64,000 nt of DNA, taken from the NCBI GenBank assembly GCA_026388095.1, contig JAPLKL010000050.1:1-64000 (forward strand), written 5' to 3'. A program made the translations under genes and the position numbers. The DNA comes from Elusimicrobiota bacterium (GTDB lineage Bacteria; Elusimicrobiota; Elusimicrobia; UBA1565; UBA9628). The notes under the pieces were generated by a model. It was not told where the DNA came from. It saw nothing but the letters and a program-made list of their open reading frames with translations, and did no database searches. Of the stretch, positions 38,132 to 45,362 are shown piece by piece; positions within the stretch are counted from its first letter, which is position 1; every line of letters starts with the position of its first letter.

Positions 38132-39694
38132 TCAGTTCACCTGCAGTCCGAAGAACTCTCCCCCTTCCTTCAGCAGCCGCTGGAGGTGCTCCGGTCCCTG
38201 GAAGCTCTCGCCGTAGAGCTTGGCGATGGGCTCGGTGCCCGAGAGCCGGGCCAACAGCCAGGAGTCCTGCAGGTAGATCTTGACCCCGTCGGTATCGCGC
38301 ACGCCGGTCACCTTCTGGCCGGCCAGCTCCTTCAAGGAAGCGCAGGAAGCCGCGTTCATGGACTTGATCTTCTGGCGCTGAGCCTCGGAGATGGCCACGT
38401 CCACGCGGCGGTAGGCAGGGTCGCCGTAGCGGCTGGTCAGGTCCCGGTAGAGCTCCAGGAGGTCCTTGCCCGTGCGCGCCATGACCTCGGCCAGCAGGAG
38501 CACGGCGAGGATGCCGTCCTTCTCCGCGGTCCAGCGGTAGATGGAGAGGCCCGCGCTCTCCTCGCCGGCCAGGATGTAGCGGTCCTGCCGGATGCCCTCC
38601 ACGTACCACTTGAAGCCCACGTTGACCTCGTCGGCCTTGCGGCCCTTGGCCTGCGCGATGCGGTCCAAGAGATGCGTGGTCCCTATGGTCCGGCCCACGG
38701 TGAGGCTGGAGGGCCAGGCGGGCCGGTTGTCGAGGAGGTAGGCCGTGAGGACGCAAAGGGCTTGGTTCGGTGTGAGCAGTCCCGAAGTCTTGGTCGCGAC
38801 GCCGAAGCGGTCCGCGTCCGGGTCCGAGGCGCCGACGAAGTCGTACTTGCCGGCCCGGGCCAGGTCCAAGAGCGGCTTCATGGGATAGACCGAGGAAGGG
38901 TCCATGCGGATCTGGCCGTCGTGGTCGCGCGGGATGAAGCCGAAGGTGGGGTCCACGGTCTTGTCGACCACGCGCAGGTTCTTCAAGCCCAGGTCCCGGC
39001 GCAGCGCCTCATAATAAGGAATGGAGGTCCCGCCGAGGGGGTGGATGCCGATGCGCAGGCCGGAGCTCTTGATGACATCCAGGTCCACGACCTCGGCCAG
39101 CCTCTTGAGGTAAGGGCCGACGAGGTCCGGGACTTCGAGGAGGCCCTGGGCCTTGGCCTTGGCCAAGGACAGGCGGCGGATGGCCTTGGGGTCGTCGAGG
39201 CATCCGTTGGCGTACTTTTCGATGACCGAAGTGAACTCCGCTCCAGCCGGGCCGCCGCTGGCGGGATTGTACTTGAGGCCCATGTCCTGCGGCGGGTTGT
39301 GCGAGGCGGTCCCGTTGAGGGAAGCCGCGGCGCGGCCCGCGATGATCTCGAGCGAAAAGACGGGCGTGGGCAGGGGGATGTCCGCCAGGCGCACCGGGAA
39401 GCCGTTGCCGGCGAGGACCTCGGCGCAGATCTTGGCCGTCTCGGCGCTCATCAGGCGGGTGTCGCCGCCGAGGAGGATGGGCCCCTTGATGCCCCGCTCC
39501 GTGTGGAGCCGGGCCACGGCCTGGGCGATGGCTTCGGCGTGGCGGCGGGAAAAGCCTCCGCCCAGCCGGCCGCGATGGCCGGAGGTCCCGAATTTGACCC
39601 GCTCGAGAGGGACGCTGGGCGAGTCGAACTCCCGGGCGAAGTGGTGGACGTTGATGACTTCCGGGCTCAAGCGGCCGGCTTCGGGGTGGGGCAT
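38132..39694 (-). CDS. pgm: Phosphoglucomutase, alpha-D-glucose-specific (520 aa)
   Basis: The phosphoserine loop is NGTASHNPPQDMGLKYNPAS, with Ser131 followed by HNP; many relatives have Ser or Pro where this one has Ala before the Ser. The metal-binding loop is GASDPDADRFG and the N-terminal FGTSGHRG is intact. It interconverts glucose-1-phosphate and glucose-6-phosphate for glycogen and envelope sugar synthesis. AAGGAGGAACC precedes ATG 39694, which makes this start secure and the overlap with the glycosyltransferase-Lnt gene 28 bp. Confidence 0.88.
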   Translation of the reverse strand: MPHPEAGRLSPEVINVHHFAREFDSPSVPLERVKFGTSGHRGRLGGGFSRRHAEAIAQAVARLHTERGIKGPILLGGDTRLMSAETAKICAEVLAGNGFPVRLADIPLPTPVFSLEIIAGRAAASLNGTASHNPPQDMGLKYNPASGGPAGAEFTSVIEKYANGCLDDPKAIRRLSLAKAKAQGLLEVPDLVGPYLKRLAEVVDLDVIKSSGLRIGIHPLGGTSIPYYEALRRDLGLKNLRVVDKTVDPTFGFIPRDHDGQIRMDPSSVYPMKPLLDLARAGKYDFVGASDPDADRFGVATKTSGLLTPNQALCVLTAYLLDNRPAWPSSLTVGRTIGTTHLLDRIAQAKGRKADEVNVGFKWYVEGIRQDRYILAGEESAGLSIYRWTAEKDGILAVLLLAEVMARTGKDLLELYRDLTSRYGDPAYRRVDVAISEAQRQKIKSMNAASCASLKELAGQKVTGVRDTDGVKIYLQDSWLLARLSGTEPIAKLYGESFQGPEHLQRLLKEGGEFFGLQVN

Positions 39695-42516
39695 GGTTCC
39701 TCCTTGGGACGTCCCTGCGCCCGGTATTCTACTACAAGGAGCGGGAGGGCGGCGCCCAGCAGCAGCAAGACGGCCAGGAGATAGAGCCCTCGCCCCAAGG
39801 CGATGTACGGAGTCCTCTCCTCCAGCAAGGCCACCGTCGCCACGATGACGCCTTCCTGGCGCGGGGCGATGCTCTGGAGGATGCGGCCCGCGGGATCCAC
39901 CACCGCGCTCACGCCGCTGTCGGTGACGCGCAGCAGATAGCGTCCGTTCTCCACGGCGCGCATGGCGGCCAGGAGCAGATGCTGGCCGGGCACCATGGTG
40001 TCGTCAGCCCAGGCATCGCTGGCCCGGTCCACGAAGAGGTCGGCGCCCAACCGCACGAAACGCCTGGCGTCCTCGGCCATGAAGTCCTCATAGCAGATGA
40101 GCACGCCGAGCCGGGCCCGGCCCGGCAGCTCGAGCAGCTTCTGCCGCCGGCCGCGAGCCAGGGCTCTGGTGTTGGGGCTTATCCGGCGCAGGACCGGCAG
40201 GAACCTTCCGCAGGGCATATAGTCCGCGAACGGGGTCAGGGTCCTTTTCTCCACGGCGCCCAACGGCCGCTGGGAGGCCCCGTTGAGCAGGCAGATGGTA
40301 TGCTCGCCGCCCGGATCGCTGCCGACCCCGCAGGAGAGCAGGGGGATGCGGAAGGGCATACGCGCCCGCAGGGCGTCGGCCAGGGGCGAGCCTTCCAGGC
40401 GCGGCTCGGATCCGTCCTGCGGCCCGTACTCCACCGGCCCAGGATAGATGTTCCCCGGCCAGATGAGCAGGTCCAGTCCGCCGGAGCCCGCGGCCGGGCG
40501 GCTGAGTCGGGTGTAGGCGGGCAGGTTCTGCGCGGCGATCTCGGCCAGGGGCAGGGGGTAGAGGTTGTCGTGCTCATAAGAGAGCGGGCCTTGGACCATG
40601 CCCACGCGCAGGGCGCGGCCTTGCGCGATCCGGACGGCCGTCTGCGCGTCGATCTGGCGCATGCGGCGCCGCCCCCAGGCTTCGTTGGCCGCGAGCAGCG
40701 CGGCCGCGCCTGCGGCCAAAGCCAGGCGCCGCCGGAACAAGGCCGGGGCCCGGCCCCAAGACTCGAGACAGAGGAAGACCGCCGCGTTGAAAGCCGCGAT
40801 GAGCCAAGCCAGCCCGGCCATGCCGAGCACCGACACGATCTGCACGGAGGGCAGATGGAAGAACTGGGTGTTGGCCAACTGCGCGGGGAAGAGCATGGGG
40901 ACGAGGCCCTCGGCCGCCACCACGGCTGGGATGAAGGCCGCGGCTGTGGCCGCCGCCGGGTCGATGGCGCGGCGCCGCTGCCAGGCTTGCCCCAGCCAGC
41001 GGGCCGCCCCGCAGGCCAGGGCGAAGATGAGCCCGTGATAGGCGCACATCGCGGCGAACCAGAACGCCGGCTCCGGCATGGGTATGTTGAGCCAGCGCTG
41101 CGTGACCCCCAGCAACCAGGGCACGCCGGCGGCGAACCAGGCGCCGCCGAACAGCCAGCCCCAGAGGAAGCTCCGGCCCGGGGTCTCATCCCGGATGGCC
41201 CACAGCAAAGGGACAAAAACGAACCAGGATAGCGCCCCCCACGGTCCCGGCCAACAGCCCGCGCCTAGCGCGCAGCCGGCCAGCACCACGAGGCCCGCGC
41301 GTCCCAGCCGCCGGACGCGGGAGGCGCCGCAGGCCTGCGCGTCCGTGACCACCTCGACCTCTCGAGGGCCGTGGATGCGGTAGTGGACGCCTCCCCAGTG
41401 GATGTCGCTGCTGCAGGCCGAGCGGAGGTAGGTCAGGACGTAAAGAGCCAGGACCAAAGGTGAGTAGAGCGCGGCCAGCAGCGGGAACCGCCGGTAGGCG
41501 GGATTTATCCCGGTGAAGCGCTCGGGCAGGAACCTGCGGAAGGTCCGGAACACGAAGTAGAGGTTGAGGGCGTCCGCGAGCAGGGCGTAGGCCGCCAGCG
41601 GCCAGGCCCGCTGCCTGACGGCCCAGGTCAGGATCCAGAGCTTGACCAGGAGCTGGACGGCGCCCAGGCCCCAGAAGCGCAGGTCGTAGACGCGGAAATA
41701 GAGCACCCATCTGCTGAGGTTGTCGTAGAGCTGGCGGAAATCGAACGATTCCCGGCATACCGTCATGGCGCGGGTGACGAACCGGATCTGCCGTCCCCAG
41801 CCGCGGGCCTTCGCGGCGAGGGCCAGGTCGTTGGTGATGGTCCCCTCCCAGATCCCGCGCACCCCCAACTCCTCGAAATCCTTCCGGCGCATGGCCAAGG
41901 ACGCCCCGTCCACGCCGTCCATGAGGATGAAGTACGGTATCCCGTAGCCCATCCAGGCCATGCGCAGCAGGTTCCACAGCCCCTTGCGCTCCGGCACGTA
42001 AAGGAAGGTGCTGGTGGCCAGCACGACCGCGGGGTCAGCCAGGGGGGCGACCATCTCGCGCGCCCAACTCGTAGTGACCTGCTGGTCCGTGACCGCGAAC
42101 AACAGGACCTCGGCCTGGGGCCTCGCCCGGTCCAGGGCGTAGAACACGTCCGTGATCCACCCGCTCGAGCGGGTGGGCCGCGCGTTGGAGGCCAGGAGGA
42201 TGGCCGAGGCGCCGCTGCGCTGCGCCAGGAGCGACTTGAGGCGGACGTAGGCCGGGTCGGATTCTGACGGGGTGACGAAGATGAATTCCAGCGCGCCCGG
42301 ATAGTCCTGATCCAGGAGGGAACGGATGTCGCTCTCGAAACGCTCCGGGGCCCCCTTGCAGGGGAGCAGGACCGCCAGCGACGGGTGGTGCCGGGCGACC
42401 GGGGAGGCGAACTCGCGGCGCATCTTGCGGAAGAACATCAAAGTGGAGGCGAACTGCGCCGCGGCCATCGCCGTGGCCGCGCAGAACAGATCGTAGGCTA
42501 TGAAGCTCACGTGCAC
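39667..42516 (-). CDS. Glycosyltransferase (GT2/GT21-like) fused to an apolipoprotein N-acyltransferase-like domain (949 aa)
   Basis: N-terminal half: a membrane helix then a ceramide-glucosyltransferase/HpnI-like GT (LAVLLPCKGAPERFESDIRS, AVTDQQV, TITNDLALAAK, NLSRW) with C-terminal helices. C-terminal half, from about residue 430: Lnt-like membrane helices and nitrilase domain. The Lys (AVEKRTLTPFADYMP) and Cys (GVLICYEDF) of the Lnt triad are present, but the Glu of the WPE motif is Gly (LLIWPGNIYP). Lnt N-acylates lipoproteins in the periplasm. I prefer the GTG at 42516 (TATTGT six bases upstream, hairpin and T-run just before) to the ATG-like start at 42585. The order is opposite to the Lnt-GT fusion of mycobacteria. 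Confidence 0.82.
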   Translation of the reverse strand: MHVSFIAYDLFCAATAMAAAQFASTLMFFRKMRREFASPVARHHPSLAVLLPCKGAPERFESDIRSLLDQDYPGALEFIFVTPSESDPAYVRLKSLLAQRSGASAILLASNARPTRSSGWITDVFYALDRARPQAEVLLFAVTDQQVTTSWAREMVAPLADPAVVLATSTFLYVPERKGLWNLLRMAWMGYGIPYFILMDGVDGASLAMRRKDFEELGVRGIWEGTITNDLALAAKARGWGRQIRFVTRAMTVCRESFDFRQLYDNLSRWVLYFRVYDLRFWGLGAVQLLVKLWILTWAVRQRAWPLAAYALLADALNLYFVFRTFRRFLPERFTGINPAYRRFPLLAALYSPLVLALYVLTYLRSACSSDIHWGGVHYRIHGPREVEVVTDAQACGASRVRRLGRAGLVVLAGCALGAGCWPGPWGALSWFVFVPLLWAIRDETPGRSFLWGWLFGGAWFAAGVPWLLGVTQRWLNIPMPEPAFWFAAMCAYHGLIFALACGAARWLGQAWQRRRAIDPAAATAAAFIPAVVAAEGLVPMLFPAQLANTQFFHLPSVQIVSVLGMAGLAWLIAAFNAAVFLCLESWGRAPALFRRRLALAAGAAALLAANEAWGRRRMRQIDAQTAVRIAQGRALRVGMVQGPLSYEHDNLYPLPLAEIAAQNLPAYTRLSRPAAGSGGLDLLIWPGNIYPGPVEYGPQDGSEPRLEGSPLADALRARMPFRIPLLSCGVGSDPGGEHTICLLNGASQRPLGAVEKRTLTPFADYMPCGRFLPVLRRISPNTRALARGRRQKLLELPGRARLGVLICYEDFMAEDARRFVRLGADLFVDRASDAWADDTMVPGQHLLLAAMRAVENGRYLLRVTDSGVSAVVDPAGRILQSIAPRQEGVIVATVALLEERTPYIALGRGLYLLAVLLLLGAALPLLVVEYRAQGRPKEEPCPTPKPAA

Positions 42517-42530
42517 GCAAAGACAATACC

Positions 42531-42556
42531 AAAAAATCCCCGGACGCGCCGGGATG
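42531..42556 (-). terminator. Hairpin plus T6 upstream of the glycosyltransferase-Lnt gene
   Basis: On the minus strand a 7-bp stem with one bulge (ATCCCGG...CCGGGGAT) is followed by TTTTTT. It lies within the sequence that an alternative start at 42585 would translate. It may be an attenuator or simply support the later GTG start. Confidence 0.4.
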
Positions 42557-42584
42557 CGGGGCAGCGCCATGTTGGGCAGCGCCA

Positions 42585-42613
42585 TTGACAGATGCCGGAA
42601 GGCCTGCCATAAT
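42585..42613 (+). promoter_or_regulatory. Sigma70-type promoter of the single-pass membrane protein
   Basis: TTGACA (42585-42590) and CATAAT (42608-42613) are separated by 17 bp and lie 16 bp before the ATG at 42630. CGAGGA between them and the ATG can act as a ribosome-binding site. Confidence 0.7.
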
Positions 42614-42629
42614 TAATCGAGGACTGGAC

Positions 42630-43472
42630 ATGGAACAATCGCCCTTGCCCCCGCTGCGCGGCCGTCGCGACCGCACCACCGTGACCTTGCTCGCCGTGGT
42701 GGGCGGGGTGACCGTCATCATGCTCTTGGCAGCCTATCTCATGATGGGCGGCTTCGAGACGCACGGGGGGCGCATCAATGAAGGGTTCCGCTTCGGGTCC
42801 GCCACCACGCCGGCCCAGGCCTCACGGCCGCCGCTGAGCCAGCCGGCCTTGCCGCAGGCCCAACCGGAGCAGCCGGGGTCGACCGGGGACTCCTTGGCCT
42901 TCGTGACCAACCAAGAATCCTTCCCCCCGGTCGCGGGAAACGTCCCGGCCAAGAAGGTCGCCGCTCAGGCGATAGACCGCACTCGGGAGAAGCAGTTCCT
43001 GGCCCAATACGACGGTCAGATCAAGCAGTACCAGGCCCAGCTCAGCGCCATCGGCTTGCGCTACCGGGAGAAGAGACCTATCGTGAAGGAAGTGGATGAA
43101 GACTTCTCCAAGTTGACCCGATACATGGCCGTCAAGCGCCGCTACGAGGCCGATCGCGACCTCTATCAATGGGCCCGGGACACGGCCTCCTTGCCGGAGG
43201 TCCGCACCACGATCCGCAAGTACCTATCCCGGCCCGAGGCCTGGAGCGTGGCCGTGGACATGGCGATCGATGCGCTCAAACAGCCGCCGCCGGCGCCGAT
43301 CTACAAGGAGATCCAGCACTTCATGCTGACCGACTCCGTCATGAGCGACATCACTGACGACGTGATGCGCAGCGCCAAGCCCAACATGCCTAACGCGGTC
43401 TCGGCCATGGTGGGCAAGGATGTCACCCCGCTGCAGCAGGTGATGACGGGCCTCAACCTTCAAAATAAGTAG
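42630..43472 (+). CDS. Single-pass membrane protein of unknown function (280 aa)
   Basis: A basic N-terminus (LPPLRGRRDRTTVTLLAVVGG) leads into one helix (TLLAVVGGVTVIMLLAAYLMM). A Pro/Gln-rich linker (residues about 70-95) and a helical domain with AIDRTREKQFLAQYDGQIKQY and YLSRPEAWSVAVDMAIDAL follow. The family is unknown to me. ATG 42630 is chosen over an upstream TTG because the promoter and ribosome-binding site point to it. Confidence 0.72.
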   Translation: MEQSPLPPLRGRRDRTTVTLLAVVGGVTVIMLLAAYLMMGGFETHGGRINEGFRFGSATTPAQASRPPLSQPALPQAQPEQPGSTGDSLAFVTNQESFPPVAGNVPAKKVAAQAIDRTREKQFLAQYDGQIKQYQAQLSAIGLRYREKRPIVKEVDEDFSKLTRYMAVKRRYEADRDLYQWARDTASLPEVRTTIRKYLSRPEAWSVAVDMAIDALKQPPPAPIYKEIQHFMLTDSVMSDITDDVMRSAKPNMPNAVSAMVGKDVTPLQQVMTGLNLQNK

Positions 43473-43568
43473 CCGCCCGGAGCGGAGCCCCGCGGCGGCT
43501 ATGCCAACATGTCCCGCGCACCTCTCCAGCGAGGAGAGGCGCGCGCCTGGATCGTCACCCGCCTTGGT

Positions 43569-43727
43569 TCAGCCGCAGCATCCGCCCTGCGGTTGTTGGC
43601 TGGTGTTGCTGTTGCCGGAATTGCTGGTGTTGGTGTTGCTGTTGGTGCTCTGCGCAGAAACACCGATCAGCCCCATTGCGGCCAAGGACACCATGATGAC
43701 CATCAGCCTGTATATGCTTGTCTTCAT
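43569..43727 (-). CDS. 52-residue exported Asn/Thr/Ser-rich protein ending in CCG
   Basis: The minus strand encodes a complete signal peptide (KTSIYRLMVIMVSLAAMGLI, then GVSAQ) and a 26-residue mature peptide of Ser, Thr, Asn, Gln and Gly ending GGCCG. GGAGAG lies just upstream and TATACT (43763-43768, minus strand) further up. The mature part is low complexity and its codons are AAC, ACC, AGC. No ORF on the plus strand explains the sequence better. It resembles a secreted matrix or adhesin peptide; function unknown. Confidence 0.68.
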   Translation of the reverse strand: MKTSIYRLMVIMVSLAAMGLIGVSAQSTNSNTNTSNSGNSNTSQQPQGGCCG

Positions 43728-43806
43728 CTCAGCTCTCCAGATATCGTCGAACTGCTAACGAAAGTATAGCCCCGCAATCCCCGGCGCGCAATAGGATAAT
43801 CAGGGT

Positions 43807-44601
43807 TTACCGATTTTTTATCTTTCTCCACTGCGCAGCAGCCAGGACCACGCCCGCGCCGGACAAGGAGAGCAGGGCCAGGAGCTGCGCGGTGCTCAGG
43901 CCGAAGAAGGTGATGCGCCCCGGGTCGCTGGCCCGCAAGAAGTCCTCCCCGAAGCGCAGCAGGGCGTAGAGCGCGACGCTGAGCAGGAAAGCCGACCCGG
44001 GCCTTAGTCCCCCCTTGCGGATGCGCGGCGCCACGACCGAATGGAGCAGAAGGAATATGAGTCCGGCGCCCGCGGCTTCGTAGAGCTGCGTGGGATGAAG
44101 AGGGACGCCCAACAGAGTGGCCGGGACTCCGCTCATCCTGTCCTTGAAGACGATGCCCCAAGCCCCTCCCGTGGGCCGGCCGTAGCAGCAGCCGTTGAGC
44201 AGACAGCCCAGGCGCATGAGCACGAGACCCAAGACCGCCGCGGCCCCCAGAGCATCCGCCACAGGAGCGCTCGCCAGCTTCCGGCGGCGGCAGAACAGGA
44301 ACGCCGCGGCGGCCGCGCCCCAGAACACGCCGAAGAAAGAGCCGCCCGCCACGCGCCCGTCCAGCAGCCGTCCCAGATTGGCGGCCAGCCCCCGTCCATA
44401 GAGCACGGCGTAGACGCCGACGCTCCCCGCGAACACCCCCAGCATCAGGGCGAATATCAAGCCCCAGAAATCCTCCAACGACAGGCCCAGGGCCGTCCTG
44501 CGGGACCGCAGGTAGAGCGTCGCGGCCAGGGCCGCCAGCCAGGCGAAGACGGGCGCGGAATGCAGGTCGTAGCCCAGAAAAGACAGGAGTATCGGCTTCA
44601 T
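43807..44601 (-). CDS. lgt: Prolipoprotein diacylglyceryl transferase (Lgt, 264 aa)
   Basis: Polytopic protein with the Lgt signature motif reading MRLGCLLNGCCYGRPT and the conserved VPLHPTQLYEA segment near residue 170. Lgt adds the diacylglyceryl group to lipoprotein signal Cys residues in the inner membrane. ATG 44601 overlaps the stop of the membrane-protein gene at 44598 (ATGA); a longer frame upstream belongs to the other gene. The GCCYG version of the signature is found in a subgroup of Lgt homologues, so exact activity is a little less certain. Confidence 0.84.
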   Translation of the reverse strand: MKPILLSFLGYDLHSAPVFAWLAALAATLYLRSRRTALGLSLEDFWGLIFALMLGVFAGSVGVYAVLYGRGLAANLGRLLDGRVAGGSFFGVFWGAAAAAFLFCRRRKLASAPVADALGAAAVLGLVLMRLGCLLNGCCYGRPTGGAWGIVFKDRMSGVPATLLGVPLHPTQLYEAAGAGLIFLLLHSVVAPRIRKGGLRPGSAFLLSVALYALLRFGEDFLRASDPGRITFFGLSTAQLLALLSLSGAGVVLAAAQWRKIKNR

Positions 44602-45362
44602 AAGGACTCCGCCGTCAGCCGGGCCGCCTTCAAAGAAGCGAACACGAGCGCCGAGTCCAGGAACATCCCGTAGAGGATGCCCAGCGCGATGCCCCCTTCC
44701 CACCGGCCCTGCAGATAGTAAGCCCAGCAGCCATTGGTCGTACCCCAGAAGTCCGCGCAGAAGACGTAGACCAGCCCGGTCACCAGGACGCTGGCATCGC
44801 GAGGGTCCGGCCGGTAGAGCAGCGCGGCCGCGAGCAGGGCGAAGACCGCGGCGCTCGAGAGCCGCGGCGCCGCCGGCAGGACGAACGCCCAGAACACGAG
44901 CGCAAAGGCGGCCGCGTAGCCCCAATAGGCGGCGCCGCGCCGGGCCGCGAGCCGGCCGCCGAAACGGGCCTCGAGCGCAACCGCCGCGCGGTCGATGACG
45001 AGCGCGCCGAGGATCCAGCCCGGGATGATCCAGAGCGGAGGCGCTTCGCCCGTATAGTAGGCCCAGACCCCAGTCCGCGTACCCCAAGCCTCGACGCACC
45101 AGCCCAGGAGCGCGGCGTAGAAGACGATCCACGCGTCGCGCTTCGGCGTGATCCTGGCCGGGACCGTGCGCAGGGTCATGAGCACGATGGAGCCCAGAAG
45201 AGCGATCTCCCCGATGACGCGCCAGCGGGCTGGGCCGCCATGCCGGAGCTGGCCCATCGTCACCCGGAACGCCTGGGCGAAAAGGTCCCGGCGCCAGAGC
45301 GCGACGGCCGCCAGCAGGGACGCCGCCCCGACCGCGTAGAGGAGCCGCCTGCGGCCGTTCAT
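44598..45362 (-). CDS. Membrane protein with an internally repeated WGTxxGxWAYY motif (254 aa)
   Basis: About seven hydrophobic helices. The motif EAWGTRTGVWAYYTG (about residue 92) recurs as DFWGTTNGCWAYYLQG near the C-terminus, indicating duplication of a three-helix unit. I do not know a function. Translational coupling to Lgt hints at envelope lipid metabolism. TACAAT (45371-45376, minus strand) lies 8 nt before the ATG. Confidence 0.68.
   Translation of the reverse strand: MNGRRRLLYAVGAASLLAAVALWRRDLFAQAFRVTMGQLRHGGPARWRVIGEIALLGSIVLMTLRTVPARITPKRDAWIVFYAALLGWCVEAWGTRTGVWAYYTGEAPPLWIIPGWILGALVIDRAAVALEARFGGRLAARRGAAYWGYAAAFALVFWAFVLPAAPRLSSAAVFALLAAALLYRPDPRDASVLVTGLVYVFCADFWGTTNGCWAYYLQGRWEGGIALGILYGMFLDSALVFASLKAARLTAESL

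Follow-up and report, generated by a model that had tools for sequence, protein, structure and literature searches.

A family of exported Cys-Cys peptides in Elusimicrobiota, its linkage to an Lgt paralog and its possible lipidation at the C-terminus

Results

The peptide gene and its surroundings

The window, i.e. the whole stretch of 64,000 nucleotides analysed, carries on the minus strand (43569-43727) a gene for an exported peptide of 52 amino acids, whose translation, MKTSIYRLMVIMVSLAAMGLIGVSAQSTNSNTNTSNSGNSNTSQQPQGGCCG*, has homologs in other genomes. Residues 1-25 (43653-43727, minus strand) were read from the translation as a signal peptide of the Sec type, with positive residues followed by a hydrophobic segment; the signal peptides of all the peptides described here were judged by hydropathy. 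By our own reading of this predicted signal peptide, cleavage is likely between VSA and QS, which would leave a mature part of 27 residues made of Ser, Thr, Asn, Gln, Gly, one Pro and the two Cys of the C-terminal GGCCG (43572-43586, minus strand; translation and alignment of 24 family members). The lipobox regular expression finds no cysteine in the signal peptide, and the first Cys stands at residue 50 at the earliest, so that the lipobox of a classical lipoprotein is absent. The sequence-only reading had described a complete signal peptide, a polar Ser/Thr/Asn/Gln/Gly stretch and a CCG ending, together with a ribosome-binding site and a TATACT box belonging to the gene. All of these are found in the frame and in front of it: GGAGAG (43733-43738, minus strand) lies 5 nt and TATACT (43763-43768) 35 nt before the ATG.

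The TATACT box is part of a promoter-like TTGCGC-N17-TATACT (43763-43791, minus strand), the spacing of which is conserved in five of seven relatives. TTGnnn-17-TATACT precedes the first copy in G001 and the copies in G006, G003, G022 and G000:C74; in G002 the upstream region shows TATACT alone, and neither element precedes the second G001 copy, which is the downstream one of a tandem pair. A generic promoter scan returned nothing at the peptide gene, because TTGCGC fits just three of the six consensus bases. An inverted repeat (43515-43545) between the peptide gene and its convergent neighbour, seen in the sequence and unscored by the scan, may be a terminator hairpin, albeit one lacking a T-run.

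The peptide had been presented as an isolated gene, a view that its surroundings contradict: its locus is a neighbourhood of several genes, and its family occurs in tandem and at multiple loci. Two genes precede it in the same direction, namely lgt2 (43807-44601, minus strand), which lies directly upstream and encodes a paralog of the diacylglyceryl transferase Lgt, and crt254 (44598-45362, minus strand), which overlaps the start of lgt2 by 4 nt and encodes a multi-helix membrane protein of 254 amino acids. On the other side, hyp279 (42630-43472, plus strand) is convergent with the peptide gene and encodes a membrane-anchored exported protein of no Pfam family; beyond it lies a glycosyltransferase fused to a divergent apolipoprotein N-acyltransferase, Lnt (39667-42585, minus strand), one of three Lnt matches in the genome. 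This fusion joins an HpnI-like glycosyltransferase and Lnt in one frame of 972 amino acids. The order of these genes can be recognised in further genera and families.

The Cys-Cys peptide family

The window peptide is a member of a family of Elusimicrobiota peptides, hereafter CC peptides, which combine a signal peptide, a fast-changing polar linker and [GS]GCC[GS] at or near the C-terminus, and whose genes are often in tandem. When 57 genomes were searched with the window peptide, 18 gave matches at E <= 10, most of the weak ones being unrelated; the reading of 19 of the 20 matched loci yielded ten ORFs that are clear members, with the tails GGCCG, TGCCG, GGCGCG, GGCCS, GGCCSM or CGNCGSGA, and two tandem copies in G001. 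A contig scan with the same query gave two matching loci, both in Elusimicrobia MAGs. In the 24-member alignment, invariance or near-invariance is confined to the columns of Met1, the two Cys and the flanking Gly. The pair is followed by 1-8 residues, mainly Gly, Ser, Asn and Thr, and is thus not always terminal; CGC in G002 and CGNC in G007 are variants of it. Since homologs with the same ending occupy the same place in other genomes, the frame in the window is beyond chance. Over the signal peptide and tail, each of the ten pairs formed from five copies gives a pN lower than its pS (0.11 versus 0.26 for G000/G001). The sequence-only reading had proposed looking in relatives for small ORFs with this ending, and would have given up its claim had frame or ending proved unconserved; both are kept among the family members, which supports a real, exported and easily overlooked small protein.

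A strict DNA pattern occurred at 49 places across 294 genomes of the phylum. Fifteen of these share the identical sequence GGCGGTTGTTGCGGTTGA and were dropped; the one that was read, G000:C64, looks to us like rpoC antisense, and the remaining 14 were excluded by identity. The other 34 places were all read: ten, in eight genomes, are members, the one in G043 being cut by the contig end, and 24 are not exported-peptide ORFs. A CC-peptide profile also recovered copies outside its own alignment (G000:C33, G000:C73 and G036:C53, all read), and its matches G044:C93 and G034:C157:17170 are candidate copies. Away from the locus, the genome of the window (G000) contains three more CC peptides, at G000:C33 (L070, 3336-3605, minus strand), G000:C74 (L056, 217-384, plus strand) and, as a hybrid, G000:C73 (20076-20306, minus strand). 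The Pfam search of the window peptide gave no fitting family (best match E 0.25), and the NCBIfam scan gave a match to the WGxxGxxG family below the cutoff (E 0.0017), limited to residues 1-43, with no MYXO-CTERM model listed. A literature search did not find a description of the family, which is no proof of absence.

An Lgt clade and a membrane protein accompany the CC peptides

Lgt2 belongs to the Lgt family (PF01790, E 1.1e-33, 117.1 bits against a curated cutoff of 24.9). Its alignment to the E. coli Lgt structure 5azb covers the catalytic region and keeps the Arg and the HPxQLYE segment, residues that we take to be catalytic; the conservation of these Arg and His-region residues in the alignment makes Lgt2 a putative diacylglyceryl transferase. 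Several Lgts per genome are common among these bacteria. In a tree, the 14 locus-linked Lgts form a single clade (support 100/99) apart from the nine other Lgts; 13 of them are linked to CC peptides and one, in G045, is cut by the contig end, two fragments that were too short having been excluded. At one locus (G007:C37, L126), the Arg of the RxGC motif, which is the catalytic-region Arg of the other Lgt2s, is replaced by Lys, beside a peptide with the CGNCGSGA tail.

For crt254, no Pfam or NCBIfam family was found above cutoff and no PDB relative by profile; the hints of a lycopene-cyclase domain (0.09), CBO0543 (0.14) and DUF817 (0.044) were discarded as too weak, and an AlphaFold2 model built from three close sequences has a mean pLDDT of 40. 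The family shows two repeats of the WGT...W.Y type and invariant Glu, Asp and Arg. From its sequence, crt254 looks like a membrane enzyme.

Twelve of the 294 genomes contain crt254, and CC peptides occur in all 12, a count in which detection is unequal between genomes since crt254-positive loci were examined more closely. The Lgt2 clade is present in 11 of the same 12 (at least 276 bits, the next best Lgt reaching 222 bits); in the twelfth, G044, the contig breaks off about 0.5 kb away from crt254. The surveys of crt254, Lgt2 and hyp279 all concern Elusimicrobiota genomes, which vary in completeness and of which many are in hundreds of contigs. With the single strict DNA pattern, CC peptides are detected in 6 of the 12 crt254-positive genomes and in 2 of the 282 negative ones (Fisher p 2.9e-8, relatedness being ignored). 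The two negative genomes are G043, which is in 580 contigs and has its CC peptides at a contig end, and G036, which is a real exception: it has CC peptides at C251 (L134) and a tandem pair at C53 (L154), and its 91% complete assembly yielded no crt254 and no member of the Lgt2 clade, the Lgt of C170 being a weakly supported sister to that clade. Because crt254 sits on a separate contig in G003 and G039, where lgt2 is still beside the peptides, the pairing of peptide and crt254 is not a matter of synteny alone.

A different idea is that of a RiPP precursor, e.g. of the MNIO (DUF692) type, whose Cys would be converted to a copper-binding group. The NCBIfam scan gave the window peptide a weak match to the chryseobasin precursor of the MNIO class (E 0.091; 13.4 bits, the cutoff being 50); a signal peptide followed by cysteines recalls the bufferins; and G043, which has CC peptides, holds an MNIO gene on another contig. 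Small size, signal peptide and cysteines are what the CC peptides share with the bufferin and chryseobasin peptides, but the modifying enzyme (PF05114) is absent from the genome of the window. Seven of the 43 genomes searched have one, and among the 14 crt254 genomes in that set (G045 included) G006 alone gives a match, weak and partial. This absence largely refutes the RiPP reading, which we judge the least probable of those considered.

Cys-Cys and lipobox peptides at hyp279 loci

The hyp279 profile has matches in 38 of the 294 genomes, and 50 hyp279 loci were read for small exported ORFs convergent with the homolog within 900 nt. Such peptides were found at 31 loci, of two kinds. At 13 loci, that of the window included, they are CC peptides (19 in total), all negative for the lipobox expression; at 18 they possess an N-terminal lipobox Cys (e.g. 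LSGC, GAAC, VVGC). The remaining 19 loci have no small partner under the filter, one of them (L083) having CC peptides 1.9 kb away. An ORF at L102 flagged as both CC and lipobox is spurious, with a TTG start and without a ribosome site. All CC loci but one carry lgt2 (12 of 13), the exception, G043, being cut by the contig end, and neither lgt2 nor crt254 was found at any of the 18 lipobox loci. Since G006, G007 and G044 hold both kinds at separate loci, the lipobox ones without a linked Lgt, the two kinds are paralogous and not simple replacements of each other.

The hybrid of G000:C73 joins the two kinds in one protein: its lipobox-free signal peptide is followed by GAGCCGGGS, with the Cys-Cys in mid-protein, and then by SCAKGTHQVGDQCV, a motif characteristic of the lipobox kind. 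In searches of 13,207 targets, decoy frames included, the HMM of the lipobox family finds it at E 9.9e-6, and still at 3.8e-4 with a profile of the mature parts alone. The window peptide is matched by the full lipobox profile (E 5.5e-4) and is absent from the list of the mature-part profile; its likeness to the lipobox kind thus rests on the signal peptide.

We considered hyp279 as the defining partner of the CC peptides and rejected it as too broad, since it also pairs with lipobox peptides and has many loci without any small partner. One to three small exported peptides in tandem, convergent with a single conserved gene, could also suggest toxin- or antitoxin-like envelope peptides with hyp279 as partner, of a size and arrangement that recall the entericidins. 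Nothing in them indicates toxicity, however, and Lgt2 and crt254 would be left without explanation, so that we hold this to be highly improbable.

More serious is the proposal that nothing but an old neighbourhood for envelope biogenesis unites Lgt2, crt254, Lnt and the peptides, the last being secreted without lipid for some other function. The locus is indeed broadly syntenic, unrelated genes included, and hyp279 also pairs with peptides in the absence of Lgt2. Yet the pairing persists where crt254 is unlinked (G003 and G039), and the class of the peptide at a locus, CC or lipobox, goes with whether or not the locus has Lgt2. A mere shared neighbourhood is accordingly unlikely in our judgement.

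The Cys pair itself admits another chemistry, which the sequence-only reading had raised in suggesting crosslinking or metal binding. It would be a thiol site, forming disulfides between peptides or binding a soft metal in a crosslinked or metal-buffering coat, and the Lgt would serve other lipoproteins. Adjacent cysteines in a flexible Gly-rich tail, the CGC and CGNC variants and the tandem copies all agree with this, as does the second GC that the lipobox paralogs bear near their mature N-terminus. Family searches of the neighbours, however, identified no metal or redox gene, and a thiol site explains neither why the peptides pair exclusively with crt254 and a single Lgt clade nor why the lipobox is missing. 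Disulfide or metal chemistry is a fair rival to lipidation, improbable overall though somewhat less so than the other alternatives; the genomic context points away from it, toward the Lgt paralog, the linked membrane protein and the lipobox homologs.

Discussion

The reading that we prefer, with a probability of about 0.48, is that the CC peptides are lipoprotein-like peptides whose acceptor Cys would have moved from the N- to the C-terminus and which would be served by a dedicated Lgt. They would be small, disordered, Sec-exported peptides, derived from ordinary small lipoproteins or paralogous to them, in which the Cys of the N-terminal lipobox is gone and a Cys-Cys flanked by Gly or Ser stands at or near the C-terminus instead. 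Following export and signal-peptide cleavage, presumably by signal peptidase I, Lgt2 would add a diacylglycerol to a C-terminal Cys. The peptide would then be anchored tail-first in an envelope membrane, leaving its polar, length-variable N-terminal part free, and crt254 would probably aid the recognition, holding or processing of the tail. Relocation of the acceptor is the simplest account because a dedicated Lgt clade accompanies the kind that lacks a lipobox; a Cys closes the lipobox at the lipobox loci and never does so at the CC loci. Also in its favour are the co-occurrence of crt254, Lgt2 and CC peptides, the pairing that persists in G003 and G039, the single Lgt2 clade with its conserved Arg and HPxQLYE, and the hybrid of G000:C73. 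What the genomes show is the peptide family, its linkage and co-occurrence with Lgt2 and crt254, the lack of a lipobox and the paralogy with the lipobox kind; that a lipid is attached, to which residue, in which orientation and with what part for crt254 is inferred from these. The complete proposal is more tentative: a dedicated C-terminal lipidation system in Elusimicrobiota, in which an Lgt paralog and a new membrane family would attach diacylglycerol to Cys-Cys tails having neither lipobox nor tail helix, inserted tail-first, and which would have evolved at a locus with N-terminal-lipoprotein paralogs.

Several observations oppose the lipidation of the tail. Lgt normally requires a lipobox beside a membrane-embedded signal peptide, and a soluble tail has no membrane segment that would present its Cys to the enzyme. 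The Cys pair does not strictly close the protein; G036 has CC peptides without the enzymes; G002 has CGC, and G007 combines a CGNC tail with the Lys substitution; and in G006, G007 and G044, which have both kinds of peptide, the lipobox ones manage without a linked Lgt. The Lnt genes count on both sides. In ten genomes (hand count) one is found at a distance of no more than about 7 kb from CC peptides, and nine of these genomes have further Lnt copies, which favours the reading; Lnt acylates a free N-terminal amine, however, which an uncleaved C-terminal Cys does not offer, so that the extra copy does not fit in a simple way. A duplication of Lsp accompanying the system was sought and not found, which also counts against the model. 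The genome of the window contains, in a 505-aa frame, the C-terminal half of an Lsp-like domain (PF01252; G000:C23:50106-50270), an arrangement repeated in several relatives.

Compared with the lipoproteins of the Lgt/Lsp/Lnt pathway, the CC peptides have in common Sec export, small polar peptides, Lgt- and Lnt-family genes alongside and lipobox paralogs at sister loci; they differ in having no lipobox Cys, in bearing their cysteines at the other end and in lacking a duplicated Lsp. As they fail the lipobox test, they are not classical lipoproteins, though they may function in the same manner. The Gly-Gly-Cys-Cys of the tail resembles the GGCC-type prenylated tails of Rab GTPases, which are eukaryotic and cytosolic; the likeness is one of tail only and the proteins are unrelated.

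The nearest published idea is MYXO-CTERM, for which lipidation of a C-terminal Cys by an enzyme yet to be identified is predicted, an unproven step with Lgt as the leading candidate (PMC11980579). The examples given there include Cys686-Cys687 of TraA and a generic GCGC motif (PMC11980579). An N-terminal signal peptide and a conserved C-terminal Cys are common to the MYXO-CTERM/myxosortase proteins and the CC peptides; the latter are unlike them in having neither a C-terminal membrane helix nor an Arg-rich end, and in being small disordered peptides linked to a dedicated Lgt clade, whereas MYXO-CTERM proteins are large surface proteins (PMC11980579). Despite the shared cysteines, the missing tail helix means that the CC peptides are not MYXO-CTERM members. 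The lipidation of a C-terminal, non-lipobox Cys by an Lgt-type enzyme is an open step of the MYXO-CTERM model (PMC11980579), and the present loci offer a compact natural test, with tiny substrates, a co-occurring dedicated Lgt clade and paralogous loci that encode ordinary lipoproteins. If true, our proposal would broaden what counts as a bacterial lipoprotein and account for a group of small secreted proteins overlooked by annotation and by lipoprotein predictors.

Beside this family, the hyp279 homologs without Lgt2 (18 loci, within L096-L124) face one to three small lipobox lipoproteins, often in tandem, an arrangement that is itself a conserved pairing, still without a name.
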